A stretch of DNA of 29,496 nucleotides from a virus: positions 1 to 29,496 of the IMG/VR virus record IMGVR_UViG_3300027965_000015. One strand, given 5' to 3'. Numbering within the stretch: position 1 is the first letter of the stretch; the number at the start of each line of letters is the position of its first letter. A model generated the notes under the pieces. That model ran no database searches, was not told the origin of the DNA, and saw nothing but the letters and a program-made list of their open reading frames with translations. This document shows positions 1 to 29,354 of the stretch, one piece after another. The position numbers and the translations under genes are program-made.

Positions 1-1431
1 GACCGATTCCGGTTCAAGCGCACTGTCTATGGCGGCGCTGGTGAGGTTGGCCAAGGCGGTACCTGTGTCCCACCAAGCTCTCGGATGGAGGCCAAGGGAA
101 TATAACACGTTCCCGGCTTGCCGCTCCCGTGCCTCAAGCGGCGTTTCATCGCGCCGGACTCCGGCCTCTGCAGGGTTTGTTATGGCGTCGTAAACTGCAT
201 AGCCGCCCAAAGCAGGGCCGAGGACGCCCACAGGAACCGGAAGGCGCACACGCCCGCGCGATGCTGCGGCCTTTGCGAAAAAGTCATCGAGCGCCATTCG
301 CAGCTTGCCTGGCGACATGGTCGCATCGATATCCGGAAGCTGCTTGGCAAAGCTGTATAACTTGTCATTAGCGACCTTTGGCAGGTGATCGCGCAGCTCC
401 TCAAATTGGCCGGCTTTCGTACCAGACTTTAATTTGATGCCCCAGTGATCGGCGGCTACGCGCGGTAATTCGTAGTTGCGCAACCCCCTTAGCGACTGTG
501 CTTCTTCCGCCGCAACCGCCTCTTGTGCCGGTGAAACCGGCTGTGGCTCCGCATTCGATCGAGGCAAAGCCTGTTGCGGAGCGCCCTCCGGCACCGTGGC
601 CGTCTCGCTTAGCGGCTGCACACGGCCGTGTGCGCCCGCTGGGCGGCGATCCATCCCTTCTTTAACAGCGTCCGCAGTTGGACCGGCCAGCACAACATTT
701 TCCGGGACTGCGTTAAGGTTGCCGCCGCCCAAAATCGCGTCGTGAATTTTCGCCATAGCCACGGCATCTGCGGCTGGCACGGCTGACGTGTCCTGGAAGA
801 TCTTCTGGCCAAGCATCCCGGCACCGAACCCAATCTCAGCAGACCCAAGGCCGCGTGCAGATTCTTGTCCTGTTTCATTTGAAATCTGCGGAGCGGCAGC
901 ACGAGTGCCTAAGCCCATTGCAATGAATGCCGCCGGCACCAGATAGGGCGGCCATGCGCCTCGACCGCCGCTAAGTAATCCCAGACTCTTTGCGGTCTTG
1001 CTGATCGCTTCCGGGCTTAAATTCTCAAGCTGAGAAGCTAACGCACTCGCTTGCTGTGCTCTGTAAAGCGCACGGGCGTCTAACCGCTTATCCAGCGCAT
1101 TCGCGCTACTATGTCCTAAGAGGTAGCCGAGGCCAGCGGGTACAGCATTGATGCCGATCTGACGGAACTGCTCATAAGGGGATTGCGCCGAGATCTGACT
1201 ATCTATGCGGCCGATCTCATCGAGGATCGCCCTTCGCCTGTCTTGTGCCTTGCCACGCTCGATAACGCGCGCATTTATCGTTGCGCGACCGGCATCGATA
1301 TCCGGCTGGCTGTACCGCCCGCGCATAATCTGGTCTTGTTCCGCCTTCGTGTACAGCTCCGGTACAACGATGCTGTCATACTCTTTTTGGAGGTCAGCTT
1401 TTCGCTTTAGAAGGTCCGCCGTGTCTGTCAT
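1..1431 (-). CDS. Large internal virion / DNA-ejection protein, partial (runs off left edge)
   Basis: The frame from ATG at 1431 is open through 477 codons to base 1 without a stop, so the gene is truncated by the window. An in-frame TAA lies four codons upstream of the ATG, making it the first possible ATG. The N-terminus (about residues 1-90) is charged and helical. Gly/Ala-rich hydrophobic stretches follow near residues 92-106, 160-179, 199-210 and 395-415, separated by a Pro/Ala/Gln-rich linker around 260-315. Such alternation is typical of P22-like ejection proteins, which leave the capsid and insert into or across the host envelope. It is the last gene of the left-hand series of ejection genes. 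I recognise no specific family. The role is inferred from position, size and composition. It is separated from the preceding ejection gene by an oppositely oriented small gene. Confidence 0.8.
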   Translation of the reverse strand, partial: MTDTADLLKRKADLQKEYDSIVVPELYTKAEQDQIMRGRYSQPDIDAGRATINARVIERGKAQDRRRAILDEIGRIDSQISAQSPYEQFRQIGINAVPAGLGYLLGHSSANALDKRLDARALYRAQQASALASQLENLSPEAISKTAKSLGLLSGGRGAWPPYLVPAAFIAMGLGTRAAAPQISNETGQESARGLGSAEIGFGAGMLGQKIFQDTSAVPAADAVAMAKIHDAILGGGNLNAVPENVVLAGPTADAVKEGMDRRPAGAHGRVQPLSETATVPEGAPQQALPRSNAEPQPVSPAQEAVAAEEAQSLRGLRNYELPRVAADHWGIKLKSGTKAGQFEELRDHLPKVANDKLYSFAKQLPDIDATMSPGKLRMALDDFFAKAAASRGRVRLPVPVGVLGPALGGYAVYDAITNPAEAGVRRDETPLEARERQAGNVLYSLGLHPRAWWDTGTALANLTSAAIDSALEPESV

Positions 1432-1455: not shown

Positions 1456-1470
1456 GAACAAATGTAGAAC
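1456..1470. promoter_or_regulatory. GAAC-N7-GAAC site (alphaproteobacterial LexA-box type)
   Basis: GAAC at 1456-1459 and GAAC at 1467-1470 are 11 bp apart; on the other strand this reads GTTC-N7-GTTC with a T-rich centre. GTTC-N7-GTTC is the established LexA (SOS) operator of Alphaproteobacteria. The site lies in the 119-bp gap between the minus-strand ejection gene (start 1431) and the plus-strand 52-aa gene (start 1551). It is 24 bp upstream of that gene's -35 box. About one such 8-base match is expected by chance in a window of this size, so on its own it is only suggestive. Confidence 0.4.
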
Positions 1471-1550: not shown

Positions 1551-1709
1551 ATGATTGAAATGGTCGAGATCCGTCCTGGAGAGTGGGTCGAGCCTGGAGA
1601 GTGGATCGCCCGCAAGAAGCCGTCAATCATCGATGAAATTGCCATTCATTTTGGAATTCTGAACACGATAGCATGCGCCATCGTGATCTTATGGGCGCTT
1701 TTTGGCTAA
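1551..1709 (+). CDS. 52-aa single-pass membrane protein, opposite strand
   Basis: ATG at 1551 is preceded by the strong ribosome binding site GAGGAG and by a plausible promoter. The protein begins with an acidic segment holding a short internal duplication (PGEWV then PGEWI, about residues 9-19). A basic RKK follows near residue 21, then a hydrophobic C-terminal segment of about 20 residues (33-52) ending in ALFG. This suggests a single C-terminal membrane anchor with the short N-terminus in the cytoplasm. Its TAA (1707-1709) overlaps the TAG (1706-1708) of the converging minus-strand ejection gene. No family is recognised. It is the only well-supported plus-strand gene here and may be a moron-type gene. 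A lysis or superinfection-related membrane function is possible, but that is inference only. Confidence 0.75.
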   Translation: MIEMVEIRPGEWVEPGEWIARKKPSIIDEIAIHFGILNTIACAIVILWALFG

Positions 1710-6639: not shown

Positions 6640-6989
6640 CCTATAATTGTGTAAGCGAAGATTTCTGTACCAGCAGCACTCGCACCGCTGGCGGTACTCA
6701 CAGTAAAACTTACCCCAGCAGTACGGGCCGAAACATAGAGCTTACGGGCACTCCCTTCCAAGGTTGCTGCGGCGGCGTTGGCTGGTATAAATGCAATGAC
6801 CGAGGAGGACGTGACGCGCCTATCGGAAACCGTCGTTGACGCAGCAGCGGACAGCTGGAAAGTGGAAACGTTCTCAAGATTGTTGAGCGCCACCTGCACA
6901 TCATTGAAAAACTTGTCCCACTCAAGCGAAAGTTGTCCGCTATTCGGATCGAGAATGGCCTTGTTAAGCGGCCGTGTGATGGTTGTCAT
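6636..6989 (-). CDS. Small virion-associated (tail/fibre-type) protein
   Basis: A 117-aa protein. The first half (about 1-45) is helical and contains FNDVQVALNNLENV. The second half is a Ser/Thr/Ala-rich beta domain ending in EIFAYTIIG. This resembles small beta-rich modules found at the ends of phage fibre or tail-needle-associated proteins, but I do not identify a family. It overlaps the upstream gp10-like gene by ATGA (6986-6989) and the downstream acetyltransferase by ATGA (6636-6639), which indicates translational coupling within the tail operon. The position after gp10 corresponds to that of the tail-needle gene in P22, but this protein lacks a long trimeric coiled coil and is much shorter than gp26. 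Equivalence is therefore not claimed. Confidence 0.8.
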   Translation of the reverse strand: MTTITRPLNKAILDPNSGQLSLEWDKFFNDVQVALNNLENVSTFQLSAAASTTVSDRRVTSSSVIAFIPANAAAATLEGSARKLYVSARTAGVSFTVSTASGASAAGTEIFAYTIIG

Positions 6990-8431
6990 GCGTTACAGGG
7001 GCGTCCGGTGAGCGAAGCCTGCATGATGCCGCGCATAATGCGAGGCGAGGCGCGGAAACGCCAGATGCGCCCCTTTTGCGATACACGGCCCCAATTGTTC
7101 AGGCGCACCATCTGCGTATATTGCCCGGTTTGCCCAAGCGACGCCGCGCGCTCACCGCGAAAATTTTTGCCGCCATCATCGCTGTAATCCACCAGAAGCT
7201 GGGGGGACAATTCGTCTTGCGTGGTGCTTTGGCCCGGAGCCAGCCCCTGCCCGGAAATGATATCGATATCGAGACGGTCCACGATCATGCCGTCCGGGAA
7301 ACGGTGTGAGTTGGGGCACCATAGCTCCATCACATATTCCACGCCGTCCTCGGAGAAATTGGCCGTGTCGAGCGTGTAGAGGTTGCCGTTTGCGTAGTTC
7401 GATACAACATAATGGCCGTTGAAGGCGATTGCATTGTTGCCGATCCACCGCGTGAGGCCCAATGACGCTCGCTGGAACCACCGCTGCATACCGATATCGT
7501 AGCACCACGTCCACTCACTGGGAGCGCTTATCTGGTAGCATTCGTGCCCCTCCCACGTCACGATATGTCCAACGATATTCTGGCGATCTGTGTCGCCGGC
7601 CAGCTCTATGGCGCGCTCGACGGTGTGTGTGGAGATGCGCAAGGCGCCTCCATCGCGGCCGTAGCGCACAATGCCCTTGTGATCGATCCAGAACATGCCG
7701 CGCTCATTCTCTGCCAGAGAAAATTTCGCAAGCAGCCCTAGCGGCACATATTGCTGCACCGGCGCAAAGGCGAATGGCGAGGTGCCGGCGTTCTGCCATA
7801 TCTCCAGGCTCTTCGATTTAAACACATAGAGAAAGCCGGCATGGGCGTAGACGCGCACAATGGTATCGGAACTGGCCGAGGCATAGCCGAATGCCAGAGC
7901 GCTAATGCCGGTGGCCAGGTCAAGCGGCGGCGTGTGAAAAATGCGATTGGTGCCATCACCAATGCCGAACACGAAATAGCCGCCGAGATAGGTTATCGAG
8001 TTAGGCGCAGGCAGATTCGGCTCGGTGGGCAGCGTTAACGTACCGCCCTGCAAATAGTAATATTGCCCTGTAGAATTTACGATGCCGATCTGCGGCGTTG
8101 AATTCAGGTTGCGCGCCATGGTTAGGCGGTCGCTGCCGGCAAGATTCGCTAGCACGCTCGAAGCACCGGCCGTGGTGAATTGCACCACCTGCACTCCGAG
8201 CACGGCTATCAGGTGTGAATCGTCCAGCAGGATCATGCCGCGCTCGGCGCCAGTAAACGATGTCTGGTTAAAGCGCGTAAGTCCCGGCACAGGATAGGTC
8301 GTAAACGCAGCCTTGCCGTCACGATCTGCGCCATGCGCCTCGGCATAGGCGTTTATAAGACGTGTATTAGCCTCCTGGCCATCCCGGCCGATCGTCGACT
8401 CGGCCGGCAGACGTAGCGGAATTGGCTGCAT
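6986..8431 (-). CDS. P22 gp10-like packaged-DNA stabilisation protein (tail hub plug)
   Basis: A 481-aa protein, close to the 472 aa of P22 gp10. Family hallmarks are an N-terminal RLINAYAE motif (about residues 24-31) and repeated beta-propeller-like strands. These include LDDSHLIAVLG, GYFVFGIG, FLYVFKSKSLEIW, HYVVSNYANGNLYTLD and a C-terminal VDYSDDGGKNF blade. In P22, gp10 caps the gp4 ring under the portal, closes the filled head and prepares it for tail-needle and tailspike binding. The gene starts at ATG 8431, its A overlapping the TAA of the gp4-like gene, and is followed by ATGA overlap with the next gene. The gp4-gp10 order is conserved with P22-like phages. Confidence is high on family and context. 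Confidence 0.9.
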   Translation of the reverse strand: MQPIPLRLPAESTIGRDGQEANTRLINAYAEAHGADRDGKAAFTTYPVPGLTRFNQTSFTGAERGMILLDDSHLIAVLGVQVVQFTTAGASSVLANLAGSDRLTMARNLNSTPQIGIVNSTGQYYYLQGGTLTLPTEPNLPAPNSITYLGGYFVFGIGDGTNRIFHTPPLDLATGISALAFGYASASSDTIVRVYAHAGFLYVFKSKSLEIWQNAGTSPFAFAPVQQYVPLGLLAKFSLAENERGMFWIDHKGIVRYGRDGGALRISTHTVERAIELAGDTDRQNIVGHIVTWEGHECYQISAPSEWTWCYDIGMQRWFQRASLGLTRWIGNNAIAFNGHYVVSNYANGNLYTLDTANFSEDGVEYVMELWCPNSHRFPDGMIVDRLDIDIISGQGLAPGQSTTQDELSPQLLVDYSDDGGKNFRGERAASLGQTGQYTQMVRLNNWGRVSQKGRIWRFRASPRIMRGIMQASLTGRPCNA

Positions 8432-21679: not shown

Positions 21680-23656
21680 CTATGCCGGCGGGTTTTTGAA
21701 GAAGTCCGGGCGCGGACCAGCGATCTCAGAGGCCGCCTTGGCGCTATAATGGTCGGCCTGCGCCATCTCTTTGGCAGCCAGAGCGCGATTGTGCATGGCG
21801 CTCGATTGCGCCAGCTCCACCTGCGCTCTTGCCTGTGCCATCTGCAGCATGTCGGCTGGCGACGGCTGTCCTGGCTTCTTTAGCACCTCGGCAACATTGT
21901 CGATCTCCGCCGCTTGCAGCACGCGCATCAATATGGGCATAGGTTCGAGCAGTCCTTGGAATGCTGGCTGCATCAGCAGAGATGACAAAAATTGCGCCTT
22001 GGTGATGCGCTGCGTTTCCGTAACTTCGCCGGGATCGGCAACCGGATTTACAATGCAGCCATCGTCGGCAAAGTCAGCCTGCACAGAGGCGGGTTGACCT
22101 AAATACTCAGAATAAGTCTTATCGTCTAGGTAACGGCGATTCAGCTCGTACTGAATGCGGAACTCATCCGAAAGCGCTACAAACACCCGTTTGTAGATAG
22201 CCGTGAAGACCTTCATGCCCTGGTCGATTAGGGCCATGAGTGTAGTTGGCTGGATATCGGCAGAGGTGGTAGCGCCTGTTAGAATGTCCTGTATAGCCAC
22301 CATCTGGCGAGCATCTTCCTTGATCGAGCCGAGCAACTGGAAGAGCACCATGGACGGACCGGCGAAATTCTTGTCGACTATCGATTCGCGGATAGTACCG
22401 CCCGGCGCATCGACGGAAAAATATTTCCCAGGCTCGAAGCGGAACTCAGATGTCTTAAAATTCAGTTCGCTGCCGACAAAACCGCCGCCTGCATTTTGTA
22501 GATGCCCAGCGTCCAGCATCTGATTAAACGAAGTGTCGATGACTTCGTTGATGCTCTCCAGCAGCTGACCGAATCCCATCCCGTAAAAACCGCCGCGGAT
22601 ATTTGGCAGAAAACGGAAATGTGTGAAATAATTGTCGCGCGGGATCGAGGTTATGCCCCGGCGGTCATAGCGTATATCCTGCGGATCGAATCCGGGTCTT
22701 ATCCGCACCAGCTTGCCGGATGACTCCTGCACCGTGACGATCCATGGCTCTACGAAGCCGTCCTCATCGAGGTCGTAAAAACAATGCTGCTCAACAAAGG
22801 TTAATGGCGATTGCTCGTCCATCGCCTCGGCCATCTCGGCATCCAAATCGATGTCAAGAAAGATGCCGTTGCGCTGACGGTCGTCTACCTCATACGGGTA
22901 CAGATCGAACACGTGGCTTATGCGCGGACAGCTCGTCAGATGCTTGGTGCGCTGGTTCACCACCAAGTCGAAGGCCGACACCCACATGGTCTGCGGCCGC
23001 GTAAACTCGAAGTCCCAGAAGGTTTTTTTGAACGAGCTGCCGATCACCGGCAATTGCATCAAAAGCGCATCCATATCGGCCTGCCAAGACGGCATGCCAT
23101 CAAGGATCTGCGAATTCTGGAATGATGCAACACGCTGCGCGCGGGCTGCTTTAGTGCCGTCCGGATCGGCACCGCCAACGCGCGCCTTGCAGATGCTGCG
23201 CCCCTGCACGATAGCAGGAAATGCCCGTGCATTGAATTGCAGGGCTGCCTCGGCAAGCAGCGGGTATTTGACATTGGCGCTATTCGGAAACGGATAATTT
23301 TTCGGCTCGCGCTTTTGCTCTGCCGTATCGACGGCACGCTCGGCCATTTCGAGCCAGTCTGATCGGCTATGGTTGTCGATCTCATAGCCTTCATGTACGC
23401 GCTGGCCTAACGCCTGCAGCTCGCTATCTGCGATAGCCGGGTCTTCTGCCACGTTGGGCATCTCGGCCCACCGGAACAGACGTTCCACCGCTTCCGGCAA
23501 CCGGATAATATACGGTGCTGGAAATGGCGTGACATTACTGGCGGCCGCGCCCTGCGGCCCTTGGGGGCCTTGCGGCGACGCCACCTGCTGCGGCGGGGGA
23601 ACCAGCTGTGTTGTCTGCTGCGGGCCTCCGGGAATTGGCCCGGCCGGGTCTGGCAT
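21680..23656 (-). CDS. P22-like portal protein
   Basis: From ATG at 23656 this encodes 658 aa; the upstream in-frame codons overlap the preceding 58-aa gene, so this later start is preferred although its Shine-Dalgarno is weak. The first about 40 residues are Pro/Gln-rich. The body then shows KNYPFPNSANVKYPLLAEAA (about 115-135), a P22-portal-family landmark. Typical aromatic-rich segments follow (FKKTFWDFEF, HVFDLYPYEVDD, FVEQHCFYDLDEDGF), with FLPNIRGGFYGMGFGQLLE and SFNQMLDAGHLQNAGGGFVG in the stem and crown-contact region. The C-terminus is a long Ala/Gln-rich helix, comparable to the barrel helix of P22. The portal forms the dodecameric ring through which the terminase pumps DNA. It lies near TerL. 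Confidence 0.88.
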   Translation of the reverse strand: MPDPAGPIPGGPQQTTQLVPPPQQVASPQGPQGPQGAAASNVTPFPAPYIIRLPEAVERLFRWAEMPNVAEDPAIADSELQALGQRVHEGYEIDNHSRSDWLEMAERAVDTAEQKREPKNYPFPNSANVKYPLLAEAALQFNARAFPAIVQGRSICKARVGGADPDGTKAARAQRVASFQNSQILDGMPSWQADMDALLMQLPVIGSSFKKTFWDFEFTRPQTMWVSAFDLVVNQRTKHLTSCPRISHVFDLYPYEVDDRQRNGIFLDIDLDAEMAEAMDEQSPLTFVEQHCFYDLDEDGFVEPWIVTVQESSGKLVRIRPGFDPQDIRYDRRGITSIPRDNYFTHFRFLPNIRGGFYGMGFGQLLESINEVIDTSFNQMLDAGHLQNAGGGFVGSELNFKTSEFRFEPGKYFSVDAPGGTIRESIVDKNFAGPSMVLFQLLGSIKEDARQMVAIQDILTGATTSADIQPTTLMALIDQGMKVFTAIYKRVFVALSDEFRIQYELNRRYLDDKTYSEYLGQPASVQADFADDGCIVNPVADPGEVTETQRITKAQFLSSLLMQPAFQGLLEPMPILMRVLQAAEIDNVAEVLKKPGQPSPADMLQMAQARAQVELAQSSAMHNRALAAKEMAQADHYSAKAASEIAGPRPDFFKNPPA

Positions 23657-23669
23657 CTGCACCAGACTA

Positions 23670-23846
23670 TTATTCCACGTAACCCTGCGGCTTGCGGGCC
23701 TCCGGCAAAGCACAGTCCTGGCACAGGGCTATAGACATGGCCAACCGTTTTGGCACCAATTGCGTCTCCTCAATCCGGTATGCTTTTTCGGCAAGGCTCG
23801 CCGAGTCCTTTGCCTGGCGCGCACGCCGTCTGCGTTCGCTTTTCAT
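23670..23846 (-). CDS. 58-aa basic protein, unknown
   Basis: ATG at 23846 has GGGG 6 bp upstream. The 58-aa product is basic at its N-terminus (MKSERRRRARQAKD), has a helical middle, and holds a CQDC motif (residues 42-45) near the C-terminus. It ends 13 bp before the portal start. A single CxxC pair is too little to call a metal site. No family is recognised; it is supported by tight spacing and start signal. Confidence 0.6.
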   Translation of the reverse strand: MKSERRRRARQAKDSASLAEKAYRIEETQLVPKRLAMSIALCQDCALPEARKPQGYVE

Positions 23847-24477: not shown

Positions 24478-25878
24478 TTAATACCCGGTATGCAACGACC
24501 GCCCAGTTATTCTGGATATTGCTGGCAGAGGTTCGTAATCGACACCATCCTCATCCCACTCCACACGTTTAACAATACGCGGAAATAGTTCCGTAAAGCC
24601 CCACACCAGCGCATCCACGCGGTCGGCCGTGGAGTTCCCTATAATGCCGAATGGCGTGAACAGAACCATCTGGTCCTCGAGCGTCGGGAAGCTGCCTATG
24701 TGGCGAATTCTGTCCTGCGCGTAAAGTGCGGAGATAGGCTCGGCGCGCGTGACTTTACCGCGAGCAGCTCGCACTTTCACAATCTTGACGTCGCGGCGGT
24801 GGGCGCGGATCACACTTTCCACCATATCGCCGCCCTGGTTCACCTCGGCGACAATGGCGTCAGCCTCGAAACGGTCATATACAGCAAGCGCCGTTTTTGC
24901 CCAGCCCTCCGGGTTCATGCGGCAGCTTGCATCCCAGATGAGATAACCCTTGCCGTCCGTGCCAAGCCCTACGCATACAATTCCGGTCTCGGCCGTATCG
25001 TCGTGGTCGATGCTTTGTTTGCCGGCCGGATCGATCGCCACGATAACCCGGCGCATCGACGGCACCTCATCGCGCTTACCAAGCTTGCAGCTATCAAGCA
25101 TGCTGCGAGTCCACAGCGCACCAGGGACGTCGTCGCAGATCTCGCCGTAAAGCTCCTGCCTGCCAAGACGCGTGCCTTCATAGCGCTCCGCAATCGTCTT
25201 AATGAACTTAGGAGGCAGATTGAGACGGTTGTCGAAAGTACTCCCGCGCGTCACTACAGTGCCGGGATCATTCATGATCTCTTTGATCTTCGGCAGCGGC
25301 CGCGGCGTCGTGGTTATAACCTGACGCGGATGATCGCCAAGGCGCAAACCAAATTGCAGCATGTCCCAGGTCTCCTCCAGGAACTGCCACTTGGCCAACT
25401 CATCACAATACGCTGCGTCGAATTGTGGACCGCGGAGCTGGTCCGGCTCGGTTGCGTTAAACAGGCTCGCTACAGCGCCGTTGGGCCATGTTAGACGCCG
25501 CTTTGATGGTTCATACAGCGGGCGGAAATCCTTCGGATGCACTGCTAGGATGCCAGATACACCCTCGACAAGCACGTCCCGGCAGTCCGATGTAGTCTCA
25601 CCCACTATTGCAATGCGGCTGCATCTACCCTTGGCGAGGGGCGTGTCTCCACATACGATCGAGCGTACCCACTCCGATCCAAGACGGGTCTTCCCAAACC
25701 CGCGGCCCGACAGCACGAGCCAGATATTCCAATCGCCTTGCGGCGGTAATTGTTCCGGGCGCGCCCAGAAGTCCCAACGGTATAAAAGCTGCTCGGCGCC
25801 GTCCTCGCCCAGCTCGGCGAGCATCGCCTTGCGCTGCTCCTCCGGTAATTGGGAGAAGCGCTCTGCAAGAGAGGACAA
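24478..25878 (-). CDS. terL: Terminase large subunit (ATPase/nuclease)
   Basis: A 466-aa DNA-packaging motor. Walker A is SGRGFGKT (57-64, catalytic K63) and Walker B is FDAAYCDE (153-160, D159/E160). A TTTPRPLPKIKE segment near 190 contributes the coupling motif. The RNase H-like nuclease shows acidic residues at D283 (AIDPAG), E345 (VAEVNQGG) and D422 (RVDALVW). The protein translocates DNA into the procapsid through the portal and cuts headful or unit lengths. The start is TTG at 25878: an in-frame TAG lies four codons upstream, no ATG is available before it, and AGGA is 7 bp upstream. It belongs to the Terminase_6 type. Motifs and context make this the most certain gene here. Confidence 0.96.
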   Translation of the reverse strand: MSSLAERFSQLPEEQRKAMLAELGEDGAEQLLYRWDFWARPEQLPPQGDWNIWLVLSGRGFGKTRLGSEWVRSIVCGDTPLAKGRCSRIAIVGETTSDCRDVLVEGVSGILAVHPKDFRPLYEPSKRRLTWPNGAVASLFNATEPDQLRGPQFDAAYCDELAKWQFLEETWDMLQFGLRLGDHPRQVITTTPRPLPKIKEIMNDPGTVVTRGSTFDNRLNLPPKFIKTIAERYEGTRLGRQELYGEICDDVPGALWTRSMLDSCKLGKRDEVPSMRRVIVAIDPAGKQSIDHDDTAETGIVCVGLGTDGKGYLIWDASCRMNPEGWAKTALAVYDRFEADAIVAEVNQGGDMVESVIRAHRRDVKIVKVRAARGKVTRAEPISALYAQDRIRHIGSFPTLEDQMVLFTPFGIIGNSTADRVDALVWGFTELFPRIVKRVEWDEDGVDYEPLPAISRITGRSLHTGY

Positions 25879-27425: not shown

Positions 27426-27677
27426 TTACCTCGCATCGGGGGCGGCCTCGACGGAAACAGCAGGCATTTGGTAAATACCTTCAATGCCGCCCCAAATGCG
27501 CAAACGCAGGATTACCGAGCTGAGATTGGCCGGCGACATATTGAGCCGTTCCGCAATCTCGATATTAGATGGAATGCAGCCGTTATTAGCTGCAGCGTAA
27601 TCCTTAAGGAAGCCATATACCCTAGCCTGGCTTCTGCACAGCCGCCGCTGTGGTTGCCCGAATACAATTCGCCTCAT
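27426..27677 (-). CDS. 83-aa winged-helix DNA-binding protein
   Basis: ATG at 27677 is preceded by GGAGGAG, the strongest ribosome-binding site in this region. Residues 15-70 form a winged helix: RSQARVYGFLKDYAAANNGC (helix 1), IPSNIEIAERLNMSPANLSS (helix-turn-helix) and VILRLRIWGGIEGIYQ (recognition end and wing). Spacing and key residues resemble the LexA N-terminal DNA-binding domain and other wHTH regulators. There is no peptidase or ligand domain. It is probably a transcriptional regulator of the late genes or a host-directed regulator. A possible promoter lies about 78 bp upstream (27755-27784). Confidence 0.8.
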   Translation of the reverse strand: MRRIVFGQPQRRLCRSQARVYGFLKDYAAANNGCIPSNIEIAERLNMSPANLSSVILRLRIWGGIEGIYQMPAVSVEAAPDAR

Positions 27678-27925: not shown

Positions 27926-28117
27926 CTAATCCTGCTGCTTGCAGGAATTACCAGGTGCGCCCTGGCTTTCCCCTTGGAGCTGCTTTAGGGTCTCTGTATA
28001 GGCTTGCGCGCCAGTGCGCTTTAGACGCATTCCAAAAAGGCGCCTGATAGCGTTGTCCATGTACTGCGCAAAACGCTCGCGCTCGGCTGCACATTGCACA
28101 CAACCTGTATAGCGCAT
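27926..28117 (-). CDS. 63-aa CxxC protein, unknown
   Basis: ATG at 28117 has CGGAGG 6 bp upstream. The product opens MRYTGCVQCAAERERFAQY (C6 and C9 form CxxC), continues with a helix (MDNAIRRLFGMRLKRTG) and ends in a Gln/Asn-rich tail (LKQLQGESQGAPGNSCKQQD). It resembles small phage zinc-knuckle-like proteins, though one CxxC plus a lone C-terminal Cys is not enough to assign metal binding. It is the first gene after the long intergenic region in the transcription direction. Function unknown. Confidence 0.68.
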   Translation of the reverse strand: MRYTGCVQCAAERERFAQYMDNAIRRLFGMRLKRTGAQAYTETLKQLQGESQGAPGNSCKQQD

Positions 28118-28470
28118 AAAGCCTCCGGATACCCTAGCAAAAAGGTAAGTCTGCCGGCCCTTATCCGAACACCGTGACGCCCCAGTCCATCAGCGTAAGG
28201 CGCCACAGCCCTAAGCACCGGCATTAGCACATGTATAGATCGTTGCGCACACAGAGGCTAGCAGCTCGAAATTGTATTTTGCGTCATTTGCACAGGTTTT
28301 GTTCTGTTAATTAAATTTTAACTTTTTAAAAAATTTTAATAGTCTGTTTGGCCGCTACCTGGGCCGATATGGAGAATCCCTAGGCCCCCCCTCCCCGACC
28401 ATGCCCCCCCCCTTAAAGCCCTAAGGTTTGGGACCCGGATGTTGGCGGCCGGTGGGGCAGCAAGATAAAG

Positions 28471-28613
28471 CCAAGCGGCCAAATTTGGCCCGTGGCGGCT
28501 GAAACGGATAGAGCCGCTAGGGGGGTAGCGACAAGAGAACCTGGCCCTGTACTGGCTTCTTTTGGCTTTTAAGGACGGCTCACCCTAAGGACGGCCAAAT
28601 TTTGGCCGCTTGG
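28471..28613. repeat. 13-bp inverted repeat with central GGCCAAA/TTTGGCC palindromes
   Basis: CCAAGCGGCCAAA at 28471-28483 is the exact reverse complement of TTTGGCCGCTTGG at 28601-28613. Each arm also carries its own palindrome: GGCCAAATTTGGCC (28477-28490) and GGCCAAA-T-TTTGGCC (28593-28607). Confidence 0.8.
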
Positions 28614-28762
28614 CATGGCTGGTAATACGTTAATTGCGGCTAGAGGTTTCCTCCGCATTTTCGTGCGCCCTGGCTTAGACTAATAGAGGTAACTCATTAC
28701 AATATCTAGCCTTTTTTTGGTACGCGCATCATGTGTCCAACAAGATGCTCCGCCAATATCCA

Positions 28763-28806
28763 GAACATTTATGGAACGAAATAAGAACATTTAGGGAACA
28801 AAATAA
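28763..28806. repeat. Tandem 22-bp repeat forming four phased GAAC half-sites
   Basis: Two 22-bp units (28763-28784 and 28785-28806) differ at two positions. They place GAAC at 28763, 28774, 28785 and 28796, exactly 11 bp apart. Any neighbouring pair is GAAC-N7-GAAC (GTTC-N7-GTTC on the other strand), the alphaproteobacterial LexA operator. Iterons of a replication initiator are the alternative. Confidence 0.75.
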
Positions 28807-28816
28807 GGCTAAACTA

Positions 28817-28834
28817 GGGCGGTTTCCGCCGCCC
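28817..28834 (-). terminator. Weak hairpin downstream of the TerS candidate
   Basis: GGGCGG and CCGCCC form a 6-bp stem with a 6-nt loop, followed on the minus strand by an imperfect U-rich stretch (UAGUUUAGCCUUAUUUU). It lies 29 bp after the TerS-like stop. The interrupted U-tract makes this uncertain. Confidence 0.35.
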
Positions 28835-28862
28835 CGCACTTCGCACTCGGCCGCGCGTCCGC

Positions 28863-29354
28863 CTAGCCAGCGTCACTTGAAATTGGTTCATGCTCGATCG
28901 TTAATATCGCCTGCTCCCTCTCCTTGGCGTATTCATTCTCTCGCTTCGCGAGCGCCTCCAGCCGATGGATGAGGCTGTCGACCGCAGAGGTGACACGCAC
29001 ATTAACATCTCCATCGATCTCAACCTGTTTGGGAATAATCTGAGCCAGGACGCTGATAAATTTGGCTGGCTCCTTTTTCATCACAGCCTCGATAGCTGCC
29101 GCTCCGCCCTTCTCATAGGCGGAAAGCATCCCATCGAGAAAAGCCTCTGCAAGCTTCTGGCGGGCGCCTTTGGGCCTGCCGGCCGGATTACCTGATTGGC
29201 CAGGCTTCCATGCATACTGCTTTAGACGATCCGCGCTGCTGCGGCGCTGTTGCAGCACTGCTGCAGGCTGCTGCTCCGGTGTTCTTTCAACTGATTGCGC
29301 TTGGAGCTTGGGCTTGTCCGGTAGCGGCGGAGTACTAACAGACTCCGTCTGCAT
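28863..29354 (-). CDS. DUF5681-type protein, probable terminase small subunit
   Basis: A 163-aa protein with an ATG at 29354 and AAGGGGGG upstream. The N-terminal third is Pro/Gln-rich. Residues about 49-65 carry WKPGQSGNPAGRPKGAR, the DUF5681 hallmark. It is followed by a helical region (QKLAEAFLDGMLSAYEKGG, AIEAVMKKEPAKFISVLAQIIPKQVEID) like those of small terminase-related phage proteins. The C-terminus is a coiled coil (SLIHRLEALAKRENEYAKEREQ). Such proteins lie near the large terminase and recognise viral DNA for packaging. Here TerL is about 3 kb further along the same strand, separated by a non-coding region and small genes, so the assignment is plausible but not certain. Confidence 0.75.
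   Translation of the reverse strand: MQTESVSTPPLPDKPKLQAQSVERTPEQQPAAVLQQRRSSADRLKQYAWKPGQSGNPAGRPKGARQKLAEAFLDGMLSAYEKGGAAAIEAVMKKEPAKFISVLAQIIPKQVEIDGDVNVRVTSAVDSLIHRLEALAKRENEYAKEREQAILTIEHEPISSDAG

Follow-up and report, generated by a model that had tools for sequence, protein, structure and literature searches.

How should four evenly spaced GAAC tetranucleotides be read when they lie in a non-coding gap next to the packaging genes of a phage? The question is raised by a 29.5-kb IMG/VR virus record, which carries a run of minus-strand genes and is here called the window, meaning the whole stretch of 29,496 nucleotides that was analysed. Our preferred reading, held tentatively, is that the array represents two side-by-side candidate LexA boxes of the alphaproteobacterial type GTTC-N7-GTTC, that is, a doubled operator. 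Judged from its sequence, the array is a plausible regulatory site of an already known kind.

Composition of the array and of the surrounding gap

The four GAAC start at 28763, 28774, 28785 and 28796, and the exact 11-bp phasing that had been noted was confirmed, as were the three overlapping GAAC-N7-GAAC sites that they form (GTTC-N7-GTTC on the minus strand). The array (28762..28805, plus strand) is composed of two tandem 22-bp units, AGAACATTTATGGAACGAAATA (28762-28783) and AGAACATTTAGGGAACAAAATA (28784-28805), which are indeed near-identical, with 20 of 22 positions the same. Its 11-mers alternate in the order A-B-A-B (AGAACATTTAT, GGAACGAAATA, AGAACATTTAG and GGAACAAAATA), which is most naturally read as two boxes and an extra one at the junction. 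On the plus strand, the candidate outer LexA-type boxes are GAACATTTATGGAAC at 28763..28777 (GTTCCATAAATGTTC on the minus strand) and GAACATTTAGGGAAC at 28785..28799, the latter having the weakest matrix fit, and the candidate middle box GAACGAAATAAGAAC (28774..28788) overlaps both and is made at the junction of the two units.

The array is the top-scoring tandem repeat of the window (TRF score 78) and the only site in the window at which any non-trivial 4-mer occurs four times at one spacing between 7 and 40 bp; a four-fold 4-mer at 11 bp was found in 0 of 100 mononucleotide shuffles. Dinucleotide shuffles of the window contain 0.59 GAAC-N7-GAAC on average and the window itself five, a count that none of 100 shuffles reached. 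A chance origin had been called very unlikely, which holds only in part: the shuffles never match the count, but the tandem duplication of one 22-bp segment with a single GAAC-N7-GAAC yields all four GAAC and would account for the multiplicity, and the four GAAC should not be counted as independent events. Under a neutral explanation, in which a 22-bp segment of non-coding DNA was recently duplicated in tandem and has no function, only that duplication and one chance GAAC-N7-GAAC (0.59 are expected per window) would be needed. We nevertheless regard this explanation as quite unlikely, because the window has no other tandem duplication of 13-40 bp whose copies are at least 90% identical, the 22-bp length preserves the exact register, and both differences between the units spare the GAAC cores, the last being a weak point with a probability of about 0.4 by chance. 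Two further single GAAC-N7-GAAC sites are present at 1456 and 21519. The first, GAACAAATGTAGAAC (1456..1470, plus strand), lies between the diverging ORFs 1-1431 (minus) and 1551-1709 (plus) and has the highest LexA-matrix score of the window. A TTGACC-N19-TATTAT match that could serve the 52-aa ORF 1551-1709 follows 24 bp downstream of this site.

The array, which had been suggested to be a control point for late gene expression, replication or packaging, is located at the start of the packaging and structural gene run. On the minus strand the gene order is a DUF5681 protein gene (28863..29354), with 64 bp between its stop codon and the final GAAC of the array, a 63-aa ORF (27926..28117), an 83-aa winged-helix protein (27426..27677), small ORFs, the terminase large subunit (24478..25878) at the head of the packaging and structural genes, the SU10-like portal (21680-23713) and structural genes. 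The 63-aa ORF is preceded by the Shine-Dalgarno sequence GGAGG; no start of this kind lies closer downstream of the array on this strand, and the nearest credible start codon is about 650 bp away. The gene of the winged-helix protein, whose modelled fold ranks closest to the LexA DNA-binding domain, is preceded by GGAGGAG. The intergenic position that had been claimed was borne out, as the gap at 28118-28862 contains no ORF with a convincing start. The only ORF covering the array, a 79-aa GTG ORF at 28733-28972 on the plus strand, was rejected; it has no Pfam match and no Shine-Dalgarno sequence and is antisense to the DUF5681 gene.

The gap also holds the AT-rich block that had been described (28304..28340; 29% GC in 28250-28349), 420 bp from the array. 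One CtrA-type TTAA-N7-TTAA site (28307-28321) lies inside this block, as compared to 0.26 expected. CtrA sites in the gaps of alphaproteobacterial phages likewise combine a large gap with repeats of an N7-spaced host-regulator motif (PMC9437464), but 12 are found in the gap of phage Delta and only one in that of the window. A 24-nt inverted repeat built on GGCCAAATTTGGCC palindromes, with 97 nt between its arms (28470..28614, minus strand), folds far better than shuffles (z = -3.4), and the C-runs CCCCCCCTCCCC and CCCCCCCCC are found at 28384-28412. A blastn comparison of the gap with phages returned no relatives, and an Rfam scan of the region gave one sub-threshold match only.

Relatives of the phage and LexA operators of the probable host group

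The relatives of the terminase large subunit (TerL) include a Chelatococcus caeni prophage (57%), a Rhizobiales MAG (55%) and Brevundimonas phages (52%), together with a Verrucomicrobia MAG (55%), and those of the portal include Roseobacter, Pelagibacter and Caulobacter phages. These similarities suggest that the host is likely an alphaproteobacterium. The closest relative contig is collinear with the window (TerL 87%, portal 82%, DUF5681 50%). Conservation of the array in relatives, a point named in the original prediction, was not observed: no GAAC-N7-GAAC is present in 40 kb of this contig, an absence that would also suit a neutral duplication, and the box was not enriched among 19 terminase relatives. 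In the equivalent gap of the closest relative (L086), perfect 45-bp direct repeats (6812-6856 and 7517-7561) enclose a small HTH gene, and AT-rich sequence is present as well. The repeats flank two small genes, one of them HTH_31-like, and this pair looks like an exchangeable cassette.

The second-closest relative (G179, TerL 64%) carries four GTTC at 11-bp steps (L280 2386-2422) in a place that is not equivalent to that of the window array. They are flanked by a lysis-type gene and by a tRNA-like 3' end with an integrase, and are a candidate for either integrase arm sites or a LexA array. This neighbourhood, and the position of the window array close to DUF5681 at the packaging cluster, bring in the explanation that the array serves as recognition repeats for packaging by a small terminase or as integrase arm sites. 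Such a role is very improbable, given that no integrase or complete tRNA was seen in the window, that the assignment of DUF5681 as a small terminase is putative, and that the closest relative has DUF5681 but lacks the array.

The array has been predicted to be a high-affinity SOS/LexA operator. The three overlapping sites are exact GTTC-N7-GTTC cores. When lexA loci were scored for GAAC-N7-GAAC within 350 bp upstream, the motif was found at 25 of 26 Rhizobiales loci and in 1 of 26 control stretches; for recA, 15 of 30 alphaproteobacterial loci had it upstream and the control never did. These counts agree with the published LexA motif of Caulobacter, GTTC-N7-GTTC (PMC12700426). The array has the same half-site, orientation and 11-bp spacing as the LexA box of Caulobacter and of Rhizobiales SOS genes; it differs in having four half-sites, in having T instead of A at matrix positions 7 and 8 of the outer boxes, and in lying far from a start codon. 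The lexA and recA boxes have a consensus of approximately GAACAYAWNWRGAAC, against which the window boxes show A or G after GAAC and A or G before the second GAAC, and the 9-mer GAACATTTA is common to a window box and one recA box (L264). The format of the Rhizobiales lexA and recA box was thus recovered, and the spacers fit moderately, but the high-affinity part of the claim is unsupported because the fit to the LexA matrix is only moderate: A dominates at the two positions that are T in the outer sites, and a search of 289 alphaproteobacterial genomes showed no enrichment of GAACATTTANGGAAC (7 genomes matched, as compared to 7 control matches).

Three GAAC at 11-bp steps were found in Rhizobiales upstream of lexA (G015/L216 and G384/L405), recA (G010/L433) and UvrD/PcrA-type helicases (G423/L440 and G083/L441). 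From these intergenic examples, phased multi-half-site LexA operators very probably exist in Rhizobiales, even though such triples show no overall excess over the reversed control in 121 Rhizobiales genomes. Four-copy arrays are not a chromosomal format, as alphaproteobacterial chromosomes gave 2 matches, below the reversed control.

Phased arrays in phage genomes and the replication-origin explanation

The array had alternatively been proposed to be an iteron set. In this explanation the repeats are iterons of a phage replication origin, at which an initiator would attach to the direct repeats and open the AT-rich block at 28304-28340. Four GAAC at 11-bp steps were found in at least 120 phage contigs. 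Among the matches listed, 85 of 120 contigs have the array within an ORF of 130 aa or more, and the array-bearing ORFs belong mainly to DnaD-like, O-like or replication-initiation PHROG families, one DnaD-like helicase-loader family alone accounting for 36 of those listed. The reversed motif CAAG gave 71 in-ORF arrays (69 scanned) in the same replication families. The association is therefore with the 11-bp phasing and not with GAAC, and a GAAC-specific link to replication genes was rejected. The 11-bp-phased arrays (L088-L207 and L281-L400), being mainly inside replication-initiator genes, might serve as a general origin finder. As a general caution, tetranucleotide arrays with 11-bp phasing in phage DNA are, for both motifs tested (GAAC and CAAG), replication iterons in most cases.

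The part of the iteron proposal that stands is this typical role of phased phage arrays, and the tandem motif at 11-bp steps is shared with the origin iterons of DnaD-like and O-like initiator genes. The gap with its AT-rich block and inverted repeat would suit an origin, AT-rich sequence recurs in the equivalent gap of the closest relative, and in one contig (L201) the arrays adjoin an HTH_36-like gene, HTH_36 being the best Pfam match of the small winged helix of the window. The part that does not carry over is the location and the spacers: those iterons are inside initiator genes, whereas the window array is outside any such gene, with the small HTH_36-like winged helix 1.1 kb away, and has LexA-like spacers that differ from those of in-ORF arrays. 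In addition, the AT-rich block is at a distance from the array, the CAAG control returns the same genes, and SSB- and primase/VapE-like genes are found about 4-9 kb upstream in the collinear relative. An origin is a possible but rather unlikely explanation of the array.

The spacers of the window favoured the LexA model over the in-ORF phage array spacers by 5.9 bits of log-likelihood, and this score or more was reached by 1.5% of the in-ORF phage arrays among the matches listed. Of random LexA triples, 14% scored below the window spacers, and in LexA likeness the window ranked 9th of 122 four-copy arrays among the matches listed. The comparison is modest evidence because of the small size of the LexA matrix and its preference for AT-rich spacers; individually, the window spacers were barely above AT-rich random spacers (p 0.09 to 0.30).

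The winged-helix protein and a possible control of late genes

The 83-aa winged helix is probably a real gene in view of its Shine-Dalgarno sequence. A single-sequence AlphaFold2 model has a confident core (pLDDT 81-92, residues 11-60). LexA chains ranked first in both Foldseek (E 0.035) and VIA-align (Z 8.1-8.3), with Lrp-type winged helices nearly tied (Z 7.7); in Pfam, HTH_36 and LexA_DNA_bind matched below their cut-offs. No relatives were found by homology search. In an alignment with 11 Rhizobiales LexA sequences, the protein lacks the recognition helix SKSG[IV]HRLI that these share; recognition of GTTC is therefore not predicted, and the protein was rejected as a direct reader of this motif.

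The array could also be the operator of a phage-specific regulator that activates or represses the late operon at its start; this LexA-fold protein, encoded 1.1 kb away, would be one candidate. A precedent is provided by phage GIL01, whose late promoter P3 has tandem boxes bound by LexA and is activated by gp6, a truncated homologue of LexA (PMC6182141). The probable gene with its LexA-like fold and a weak minus-strand -35-like TTGGCG (28756), 7 bp from the end of the array and followed 17 bp on by CATGAT, are in line with such an operator. The promoter match adjoining the array is at chance level, however, the Z scores are nearly tied with Lrp/MarR winged helices, and no relative of the protein was found in which co-occurrence with the array could be seen. 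This explanation is considered unlikely.

Under the doubled LexA operator that we prefer, each of the outer boxes (28763-28777 and 28785-28799) would be occupied by one LexA dimer, the two dimers being neighbours on the same face of the DNA, and the middle box would offer an alternative register that arose with the 22-bp duplication. While bound, LexA would restrain minus-strand transcription across the gap into the downstream small genes and the packaging genes, and upon DNA damage LexA would be cleaved and the array released. The LexA-fold protein of the phage may join or compete, as gp6 does in GIL01. Like GIL01 (PMC6182141), the window has candidate tandem LexA boxes near the start of packaging and late genes and encodes a protein with a LexA-like DNA-binding fold but no peptidase domain. 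Unlike in GIL01, the boxes overlap in direct-repeat phase and the recognition helix lacks the alphaproteobacterial LexA residues; the two phages are unrelated and probably infect different host phyla, and the switch proposed for the window is a prediction from sequence. An independent GIL01-like switch in an alphaproteobacterial phage, where host-LexA boxes gate the late and packaging genes, a non-cleavable phage protein with a LexA DNA-binding domain modulates them, and the four-half-site array lets LexA choose registers, is a speculative and decidedly improbable extension.

If LexA binds the array, the DNA-damage response of the host would control the late genes in a phage group that appears to be alphaproteobacterial, and would do so without a classical phage repressor at this site. 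The occupancy of phased, overlapping LexA half-sites could then also be examined on a natural example.
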